Positions 52,007 to 54,659 of a stretch of 64,000 nucleotides of DNA are shown here, one piece after another (within the stretch, counting starts at the first letter, position 1; each line of letters starts with the position of its first letter). The translations under genes were made by a program, and so were the position numbers. This stretch comes from Ferrithrix thermotolerans DSM 19514 (GTDB lineage Bacteria > Actinomycetota > Acidimicrobiia > Acidimicrobiales > Ilumatobacteraceae): contig CAMASN010000010.1 of assembly GCA_945861025.1 (NCBI GenBank), forward strand, positions 1-64,000. The letters are read 5' to 3'. The notes beneath the pieces are model-generated. The model searched no databases. It had not been told where the DNA came from and saw only the letters and a list, made by a program, of their open reading frames with translations.

Positions 52007-52745
52007 CTGCTTGGGCGAGTGCCTGACGCGCTGACTTTGCCGAGCGCCGCACGGCGAACACCCATCCGGCAATCGCGCACAGCGAGAAGAATAACCATTG
52101 CCCGGTGTACGACACGTGCGGGGGACCGCTGCCGAGATTGGGTGGCGGAACCGGAACTGGCGGCGATGGCGATGCCGGCTTTGTCGCAATGAGATCTATG
52201 TATATCGGCGCGATCGTTTGGTCAATGCGCTCGGCGATAAACGCAAGATCTACGCGCCTCACTTCGTTGTTGCTGGCGCTCTGGTCGTCGGTTAGCTCGC
52301 CGGTCCGACGGATCTGCGATGTTCGTGCGGTGCCCCCAACAACAATGGTTCCGGTGGGCGCCGCGGGCACCTGGATGCCGTCGGGAACGAAGCCGCGGTT
52401 GACGATGATGATCGGGCCGTTGTTGATTTGGAACGGCGTCAAGATGTTGATGCCGTTGAAGCCGTTTTGGGTGCGGTTGAGCTGGCGCAGTTCGCCGGTG
52501 GTGACATACGAACCTGAGGCGGTGACCACGTACCACTCGATGTCGGCAGCGGGTGTGTTTGCGCTGAGCAACAGAGCGAGTTCTTCGGGCTCGGCGGCCA
52601 GGCGGCCCTTGACGGTCTCGACGAACGCATCGTGCGCGATGTGCTTGTCCCACTGCCAGCGAGCGAGAAAGAGCATGCCGACAACGGAGCAGAGAACAAC
52701 TACGTGAAGCAGCAGCCATTTGGGCCGTAACAGAAAGCGATACAT
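51972..52745 (-). CDS. SURF1-family cytochrome oxidase biogenesis protein
   Basis: 257-residue membrane protein assisting haem a insertion or assembly of cytochrome c oxidase. Topology is typical: one N-terminal helix (about 10-28) followed by LARWQWDKH, a large external domain with IIVNRGFVP, and a C-terminal helix (about 214-232, SYTGQWLFFSLCAIAGWVF). A Pro-rich stretch (about 192-206) precedes the last helix. No oxidase genes are nearby. Its end overlaps the convergent MBL gene. Confidence 0.9.
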   Translation of the reverse strand: MYRFLLRPKWLLLHVVVLCSVVGMLFLARWQWDKHIAHDAFVETVKGRLAAEPEELALLLSANTPAADIEWYVVTASGSYVTTGELRQLNRTQNGFNGINILTPFQINNGPIIIVNRGFVPDGIQVPAAPTGTIVVGGTARTSQIRRTGELTDDQSASNNEVRRVDLAFIAERIDQTIAPIYIDLIATKPASPSPPVPVPPPNLGSGPPHVSYTGQWLFFSLCAIAGWVFAVRRSAKSARQALAQAATDEPQTLPSA

Positions 52746-52764
52746 GTACTCCTGACCGTATCGG

Positions 52765-53583
52765 TCAGCTACGCGCCCACAACATTTCTGTGGGCGATTG
52801 GGTGTTCAACAACAGTTCGGCAGGGGAGTGCTTTTCGATGTGCCCGATGAGCCCTCGATAGAGCTGAAACCCGCACAACTGCTGGAGGTCGGGGCTGAAC
52901 TGCCGAACCAGATCGAGCGGGATGCCGAGCTGCTGGTTCTCTTGTTGGCGAACCCATCCGGCGCAGTAGTTCATCGCAACGCCCCAGCGGCGTTGGCTGG
53001 TGGCGTTGGCCCCACCCCCGTGCCACAGTGAGCCGTGCCAGATGAGCACACTGCCCTTGCGCATCTCAGCGGCAATCGACTGTTGCTCCACGCCATACGG
53101 CGGCGAGTGATCGGCTTTGTGCGAACCAGGGATGATGCGCGTTGCCCCGTTTGCCTCAGTGAAATCAGTGAGCGCCCACATGCTGTTGGCGATGGTGGCG
53201 AGGTGAGGTTTAGGTAGGGGCAGCAACTGATCGTCGGCGTGAATGGGCTGGGCCGTTTCTCCGGGGCCGATGGAGATCGACGACAGGCTGCTGATGAGGC
53301 AGCCATCGCCCAACACGTTGCGCATGACAGCGAGCACAACTGGGTGCACTGGGATCTGCTCGTAGAGGCGACCCAACGCGAGCAGGTTGTAGATGCGCCA
53401 CGTTTGGAAGCCTTCGAATCCGTTGGTGGCGGGAACGATGTTGCGTTCGCGCTCGAGTCGGGTGAGGTCGGACACGAGTTTGTCGGCTAGGTCGGTTGAG
53501 AAAGCGTTCTCGATGATGGTGTAACCATCGGCCTCGACACGGTTGAGGTGGTCGCGGATCAACATCTCGTCTGTACCTGTCAT
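52765..53583 (-). CDS. Phytanoyl-CoA dioxygenase (PhyH) family protein
   Basis: 272-residue Fe(II)/2-oxoglutarate oxygenase. Iron ligands are His115 and Asp117 (PIHADDQLL) and a distal His in WHGSLWHGGG (His188 most likely); the 2-oxoglutarate Arg lies shortly after, in SQRRWGVAMNY. The N-terminal YTIIENAFS is common to PhyH proteins. Natural substrate unknown. TAGCGT (minus, 53597-53592) is 8 nt upstream of the ATG. Confidence 0.87.
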   Translation of the reverse strand: MTGTDEMLIRDHLNRVEADGYTIIENAFSTDLADKLVSDLTRLERERNIVPATNGFEGFQTWRIYNLLALGRLYEQIPVHPVVLAVMRNVLGDGCLISSLSSISIGPGETAQPIHADDQLLPLPKPHLATIANSMWALTDFTEANGATRIIPGSHKADHSPPYGVEQQSIAAEMRKGSVLIWHGSLWHGGGANATSQRRWGVAMNYCAGWVRQQENQQLGIPLDLVRQFSPDLQQLCGFQLYRGLIGHIEKHSPAELLLNTQSPTEMLWARS

Positions 53584-53591
53584 GGCTGAGG

Positions 53592-53601
53592 ACGCTACCG
53601 T
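53592..53601. promoter_or_regulatory. Overlapping divergent -10 boxes
   Basis: TAGCGT on the minus strand (53597-53592) serves the PhyH gene and TACCGT on the plus strand (53596-53601) serves the kinase gene; both share T596-A597. Each is 8 nt from its start codon, and only 26 bp separate the start codons. Confidence 0.55.
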
Positions 53602-53609
53602 GCCGGAGT

Positions 53610-54659
53610 GTGGGACCTGAGCAAGTAACTGGTGAGTGGCTATCGACGCTGTTCGATGTCACGGTAGTAATCGCTGACACTCAACGCATTGGCGACGGAC
53701 TCGTGGGCATGAACCTGCGTCTGACACTTACCGGCCCCGATGGTTCGTTGCCCGACTCGGTACCGCGCAGCGTGGTGGTCAAGCTGCCATCACCCGACGA
53801 AACCAGCCGGGCAACAGGTATGGCGCTGCGTAACTACGAGCGCGAGGTGAAGTTCTATAACGAGGTCGCACCCACTGTCGACATTCGCGTGCCGCGCTGC
53901 TATCACGCCGAATGGGATGCCGACACCGGCGACTTTGTCATCGTTCTCGAAGACCTCGCGCCGGCGTCGCAGGGCAACCAGATCACTGGCTGTTCGGTCA
54001 ACCATGCGCGCACTTCGGTGCTCGAACTCGCCCGCTTGCATGGTCCGCGTTGGGGCGACCCGGCGCTCAGCGACATCGAGTGGCTCAGCCGCCGCACCAC
54101 CGCCGACGACACAGCGATGTTGGTTGGCATGTGGGGCATTTTGTTCCCAGGGTTCATGGCAACCTATGGCAAGTATCTGACCGAGGAGGCCACCGATCTA
54201 GTGCAGCGTTTCGGCGCGATGCTGGCCGACTGGATCGACAAGCGTGATAGCCCGCTCACGGTGACCCACGGCGACTACCGACTCGACAACCTGATGTATG
54301 CCACTCCCGAGGGTGGCTCGCCGATCGCCACGGTCGATTGGCAGTCCCCTGGCCATGGCGCGGCCCTGGCCGACGTGTCGTATTTCCTCGGTGCCGGGCC
54401 GCAGCCCGAAGATCGTCGTGAGATCGAAAAGGGTCTCGTTGCCGAGTATGTCGAGGCGTTGCGCTGCGACTACAACATCGAGATCGACCACGATTGGGCG
54501 TGGCTGCAGTATCGCCGCGAGGCCTTCGCCGGCGTCGTGATGGCGGTTGTCGCGTCACAAATCGTTGGCGGCACCGAACGCAGTGAGGCGATGTTTGCAG
54601 CGATGGCCACTCGCCATTTGCAGCATGCGCTCGACCTCGACAGCGAGTCGCTGATCTGA
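53610..54659 (+). CDS. Aminoglycoside-phosphotransferase-fold kinase
   Basis: 349-residue APH/ecdysteroid-kinase-like protein. The nucleotide-binding Lys lies in VVVKLPSP, the catalytic loop is THGDYRLDNLMY, and the metal-binding Asp in ATVDWQSPGHG. Such kinases phosphorylate small molecules; in actinobacteria they often accompany acyl-CoA metabolism genes. There is no evidence for antibiotic resistance. It starts with GTG at 53610. Confidence 0.86.
   Translation: MGPEQVTGEWLSTLFDVTVVIADTQRIGDGLVGMNLRLTLTGPDGSLPDSVPRSVVVKLPSPDETSRATGMALRNYEREVKFYNEVAPTVDIRVPRCYHAEWDADTGDFVIVLEDLAPASQGNQITGCSVNHARTSVLELARLHGPRWGDPALSDIEWLSRRTTADDTAMLVGMWGILFPGFMATYGKYLTEEATDLVQRFGAMLADWIDKRDSPLTVTHGDYRLDNLMYATPEGGSPIATVDWQSPGHGAALADVSYFLGAGPQPEDRREIEKGLVAEYVEALRCDYNIEIDHDWAWLQYRREAFAGVVMAVVASQIVGGTERSEAMFAAMATRHLQHALDLDSESLI

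Follow-up and report, generated by a model that had tools for sequence, protein, structure and literature searches.

Divergent genes around a 26-bp gap

The stretch of DNA analysed here (the window, 64,000 nt) comes from contig C10 of a 2.89-Mb assembly in 104 contigs, a genome labelled G000 throughout. It carries a PhyH-family dioxygenase gene and an EcKL/APH-type small-molecule kinase gene that are transcribed away from each other (Table 1), and the ORF ends place the 26-bp gap between them exactly where the original prediction had it. Direct reading of the sequence bears out the two oppositely oriented -10 boxes as well: they interlock, and the TA at 53596-53597 is common to both. Eight of the 10 positions of the resulting element, ACGCTACCGT, are self-complementary.

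Table 1. Features of the PhyH-kinase locus and other interlocked gene pairs of G000
Feature	Position	Strand	Basis and remarks
PhyH-family dioxygenase gene, 272 aa	52765-53583	-	Pfam PF05721, 1.7e-28
Predicted PhyH transcription start, first base of ATG	53583	-	8-nt spacing falls in the 6-8 nt peak
Intergenic gap, taken as core of a bidirectional promoter	53584-53609	.	ORF ends; 26 bp
Interlocked -10 element ACGCTACCGT (A...TA...T)	53592-53601	.	Sequence; inside the 16-bp block 53590-53605, identical in 5/5 genomes
PhyH -10 box TAGCGT	complement of 53592-53597	-	8 nt ahead of ATG at 53583
Kinase -10 box TACCGT	53596-53601	+	8 nt ahead of GTG at 53610
Predicted kinase transcription start, first base of GTG	53610	+	8-nt spacing falls in the genome's 6-8 nt peak
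EcKL/APH-type small-molecule kinase gene, 349 aa	53610-54659	+	PF02958, 1.3e-17; PF01636, 1.9e-10
Interlocked pair VWA_2 / Guanylate_cyc	L041		Pfam; VWA_2 barely over the cut-off
Interlocked pair Cpn10 (GroES-like) / alpha-beta hydrolase	L186:13915-13955		23-bp gap; perfect palindrome ACGGTACCGT, 10/10 self-complementary
Interlocked pair QueF-like / PhyH	L325 around 2008		AGACTACGGT; second PhyH-family gene, 293 aa
Interlocked pair DUF6204 / CxxCxxCC	L243		Pfam
Probable sixth pair, MOSC / AIRS-domain protein	L234		Score 14.3 against 15 needed; plus-strand frame runs off the contig end

The -35 positions fall inside the opposite genes, at about 53572-53579 in PhyH and about 53614-53621 in the kinase gene, which agrees with the original prediction; no -35-like hexamer was seen by eye at either of them. 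A sigma-70 consensus scan returned no site in the gap (three promoter-like sites in 19 kb against 4.1 expected), and an exact consensus pattern search of G000 gave no match. Both boxes fit TANNNT and match TATAAT at only 3 of 6 positions. Given this fit and the absence of a sigma-70 site in the gap, the E. coli consensus is an unsuitable standard for this actinobacterium, and the actinobacterial TANNNT box is the proper one. In Mycobacterium tuberculosis, TANNNT was reported 7-12 bp upstream of 73% of primary transcription starts, with a preference for purine starts and no conserved -35 motif (PMC3898074). The possibility that the PhyH-family protein is an ectoine hydroxylase was rejected, its ThpD match reaching 35 bits against a cut-off of 336.5.

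Leaderless starts across the genome and among orthologues

Conventional ribosome sites are missing, in line with the original prediction: no Shine-Dalgarno word, defined as any 4-mer of AAGGAGGTGA at 4-12 nt ahead of the start, precedes either PhyH or the kinase. A GGAG lies 1 nt from the kinase GTG, too close to serve as a Shine-Dalgarno site, and it is not kept in either G007 or G001. Leaderless genes are reported to be common in Actinobacteria, where they make up over 20% of genes and carry TANNNT some 12 bp ahead of the start codon (PMC3160421), and 505 leaderless genes are given for M. tuberculosis (PMC3898074). The two genes at this locus resemble that class on both counts, having no Shine-Dalgarno site and a TANNNT whose first T lies 14 bp from each start codon.

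The same signal runs through the genome. In a G000 sample of 844 kb (39 stretches plus the window, 697 genes), 125 genes carry TANNNT at 6-10 nt ahead of the start codon, against a background of 2.72 per position at 11-39 nt. Among the 380 genes in the first 464 kb, 24 have the box at 6 nt, 16 at 7 nt, 16 at 8 nt, 8 at 9 nt and 5 at 10 nt. A Shine-Dalgarno word accompanies 13 of the 125 box-bearing genes in the sample versus 198 of the 572 genes without a box, a scarcity that is expected if the TANNNT box marks leaderless genes. The lack of ribosome sites at PhyH and the kinase is therefore no anomaly, both genes belonging to the leaderless TANNNT class. The adjacent SURF1 gene (start at 52745) appears leaderless too: its TACGGT box (52755-52760, minus strand) stands 9 nt ahead of the ATG and 4 bp past the PhyH stop codon.

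Orthologues of both genes were examined from the best 30 loci for each. Among kinase orthologues with at least 45% identity and the N-terminus present (L013, with its N-terminus missing, and 14 loci below 45% were dropped), all 15 loci have TANNNT 6-9 nt ahead of an in-frame start, compared with 5 of 30 in the out-of-frame control. Among PhyH orthologues with at least 55% identity (L078 and L079 were dropped for missing N-termini and L080 at 42%), a leaderless-type box is found in 20 of 27 loci, compared with 1 of 54 in the control. Both sets of counts include several closely related loci, and the out-of-frame control carries no open-frame requirement. One of the kinase boxes, TAGGGT at 9 nt in L009, is questionable, since the gene upstream of it in that genome is an SDR gene. 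The 7 of 27 PhyH orthologues in which the box is missing count against reading the gap as a doubly leaderless bidirectional promoter. At PhyH loci of six genomes from another genus (L057, L060, L062, L063, L065 and L077) a conserved TCTGGCACAGT replaces TANNNT ahead of the start, perhaps representing a different promoter class.

Conservation and recurrence of the interlocked element

The PhyH-kinase pair was found in five of nine genomes of the genus (G000, G001, G006, G007 and G008), each time with a 26-bp gap. In the two more distant genomes, G001 and G007, all 16 positions of the core at 53590-53605 are identical to G000, while only 4 and 5, respectively, of the other 10 gap bases are. Fourfold-degenerate sites are 43-46% identical between G000 and these two genomes. 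The architecture has thus been long kept, its core having stayed the same while about 55% of fourfold sites differ.

Beyond the genus the arrangement changes in two ways. In three genomes of another genus (G026, G068 and G083), the PhyH TAGCGT is interlocked, as ACAGTAGCGT, with the GTG-started SDR gene across a 23-bp gap, and the kinase gene lies further along in the same direction as the SDR gene. The SDR gene sits between PhyH and the kinase at three loci from this genus (L165, L166 and L167), taking over the position of the kinase at the interlocked promoter. G106, from the same SDR genus, has a PhyH copy (L079) too short to judge. In six genomes of a third genus, the PhyH-kinase pair has a gap of 47-49 bp and no shared box; a CTACSGT kinase box and ACTGTGCCAGA ahead of PhyH are both present without interlocking. 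Interlocking is therefore not required, a point against the bidirectional reading.

Within G000 the element is not unique. The 844-kb sample holds 99 divergent pairs, seven of which have gaps of 20-32 bp, and three of these seven carry the interlocked element at 5-11 nt from both starts (two of six once the window locus is set aside, this locus having been ascertained as the finding itself). Shuffling each gap gives an expectation of 0.049 (P printed as 0.0000 in 20,000 shuffles), and random windows drawn from longer divergent gaps give 0.013. Interlocking at the short divergent gaps of G000 is above chance. Smaller samples of three other genomes contained no interlocked short gap (0 of 4 in G001, 0 of 1 in G020 and 0 of 4 in G029; together 0 of 9).

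A pattern census of the whole assembly returned 25 places corresponding to 24 distinct sites. Five of them have convincing genes on both sides, a sixth is probable (Table 1) and the remaining 18 are not flanked by a convincing gene pair. Gaps at the six candidate sites measure 23-26 bp. Among the nine genomes of the genus, the five sites other than the window locus are matched in 9 (L186), 9 (L041), 5 (L325), 3 (L243) and 5 (L234) cases, and no aligned sequence spanning the A, TA and T letters lacks any of them. Starts at 5-11 nt on both sides are found in 8 of 10, 9 of 9, 5 of 5, 3 of 3 and 5 of 5 loci in the same order, counts that include the window's own genome. Of the two L186 exceptions, one ends at a contig edge and the other, L217, is without a plus-side start at the expected place. 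The ACGGTACCGT palindrome of the L186 pair is present in every matched locus of the genus whose sequence covers it.

A simpler count of the pattern CAYN{6,9}ANNNTANNNTN{6,9}RTG in 101 genomes was uninformative, G000 giving 15 matches versus 41 for the reversed control, because the control has AT in place of TA, which we assume to be the rarer dinucleotide. It was superseded by the gene-based shuffle test and by an open-frame check of all 25 census matches in G000, where 19 of the 24 wider-pattern sites (L234 included) are not gene starts on both sides.

The symmetrical A, which stands four bases ahead of TANNNT and completes the second box, was also compared inside and outside the interlocked geometry. 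It occurs in 11 of 215 leaderless boxes outside and at 3 of 5 loci inside (Fisher 0.0019, with eight views collapsed by hand to the five loci). Six of the 223 boxes came from G026 (69% GC), which is visibly mis-called by the simple gene finder; the gene calls of this genome carry no weight here, and it was excluded from the short-gap test. At coding and noncoding TANNNT sites of G000 and the other samples the symmetrical A is present in 9-11% of cases, where base composition would give about 19%. We do not claim that leaderless promoters avoid it, the background itself being only 9-11%.

A candidate doubly leaderless bidirectional promoter

Taken together, the gap is quite probably one compact bidirectional promoter that would give rise to two leaderless mRNAs, one for the PhyH dioxygenase and one, in the other direction, for the kinase. 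The symmetry of TA allows two TANNNT boxes to interlock, and the near-symmetrical A...TA...T element, reading TACCGT on one strand and TAGCGT on the other, could be bound in either orientation by what we infer to be a housekeeping-type RNA polymerase holoenzyme. Transcription would then begin at each start codon or no more than a few bases from it, and the conservation of both boxes lends indirect support to transcription in the two directions. Overlap of -10 elements on opposite strands is the hallmark of the bidirectional promoters described by Warman, Grainger and colleagues, whose divergent starts are by definition 7-25 bp apart (PMC10268837). The start-to-start distance predicted here is 23-27 bp, depending on where transcription starts, and the upper value, which corresponds to starts exactly at the start codons, is just beyond that window and counts against the assignment.

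It is improbable, though conceivable, that a genuine promoter exists on the kinase side alone, the PhyH box being a by-product of TA symmetry and PhyH being transcribed from within the kinase gene. The kinase box indeed occurs throughout the family, whether PhyH is there or not. The G002 locus has lost PhyH and the greater part of the kinase gene but retains ACGCTACCGT, which means that no strict link holds between PhyH and the box on its side. Against this, the A that only the PhyH box uses (53592) is present in all five genomes that have the pair, unlike flanking gap bases, which vary, and it is absent in G003 and G004, both of which lack PhyH at the locus and have the kinase box. The box at leaderless spacing in 20 of the 27 PhyH orthologues tested (from the best 30 loci) and the PhyH start without a Shine-Dalgarno word likewise argue for a promoter of PhyH's own. 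At the G002 locus (L171, about 2600-2680, on G002:C55) the kinase promoter, GTG and first codons now run into a DUF4262 frame, which normally is the next one after the kinase gene.

The original prediction went on to propose that, through the shared base pairs, expression of one gene should exclude that of the other at any given time. Its premise holds: the geometry of the overlap bars two polymerases from binding at once, as is also stated for bidirectional promoters (PMC12825309). The conclusion finds no support in the sequence or in the E. coli work, which describes no appreciable basal competition at five tested bidirectional promoters, their basal activity being too low for it, and repression of the partner when one direction is strongly activated (PMC12825309). 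The site thus shuts out a second polymerase, yet this does not oblige the genes to exclude one another. No regulator is present among the five genes typed around the gap. Polymerase occupancy of a promoter should be short relative to mRNA and protein lifetimes. A temporal switch is accordingly very unlikely in our estimate, and side-by-side expression of PhyH and the kinase is the more likely default; overlapping -10 boxes should not by themselves be read as a sign of mutually exclusive expression. Least probable of all is that ACGCTACCGT serves a dimeric transcription factor as its operator and does not comprise two promoters, a reading suggested by self-complementarity at 8 of 10 positions here and 10 of 10 at the GroES-like/hydrolase pair, since the six sites range from 4 to 10 of 10, share nothing beyond the A, T, A and T letters of the two TANNNT boxes, and use the same hexamers that stand at a fixed distance ahead of one-sided leaderless genes.

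The proposed bidirectional promoter with two leaderless products would thus combine two known elements. Like the bidirectional promoters of E. coli, Salmonella and other prokaryotes, it has -10 elements that overlap on opposite strands through their own symmetry (PMC12825309, PMC10268837) and room for one polymerase at a time (PMC12825309). By our arithmetic, 23 bp, one of several common spacings of such promoters, corresponds to two TANNNT boxes that share their TA at a spacing of 7 bp. Unlike the E. coli type, it shows TANNNT instead of TATAAT and no visible -35, both mRNAs are predicted to be leaderless so that the whole gap would be promoter, and the distance from start codon to start codon is 27 bp. 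It shares with actinobacterial leaderless genes a TANNNT roughly 12 bp ahead of the start codon (PMC3160421, PMC3898074), and it differs from them in general in having interlocked boxes that belong to two divergent genes. The available text of the open-licence literature on leaderless genes and on bidirectional or overlapping divergent promoters yielded no doubly leaderless interlocked pair (PMC12529400 concerns a bidirectional terminator). The M. tuberculosis pair prpD/Rv1129c is divergent and leaderless on both sides, with starts 120 bp apart (1254630 and 1254510) and no interlocking; both genes are induced in starvation (PMC3898074).

The evidence strongly suggests a well-conserved bacterial promoter of a known kind and not a switch that allows just one of the two genes to be on, with bidirectional -10 elements and leaderless mRNAs joined in about the smallest arrangement that either allows. 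We judge it evenly balanced whether the genus has a separate class of minimal promoters maintained by selection, numbering roughly six per genome, each with one 10-bp A...TA...T element that drives two leaderless genes. Should this be the case, a gap of 23-26 bp would carry all initiation signals, for transcription and translation, of both genes, and each gene's -35 positions and first coding bases would also work for its neighbour. Natural controls for selection on interlocking are at hand in the PhyH-kinase pair itself, which is interlocked in five genomes and stands un-interlocked at 47-49 bp in six genomes of a different genus, and in the three genomes of yet another genus where PhyH is interlocked with a different partner.
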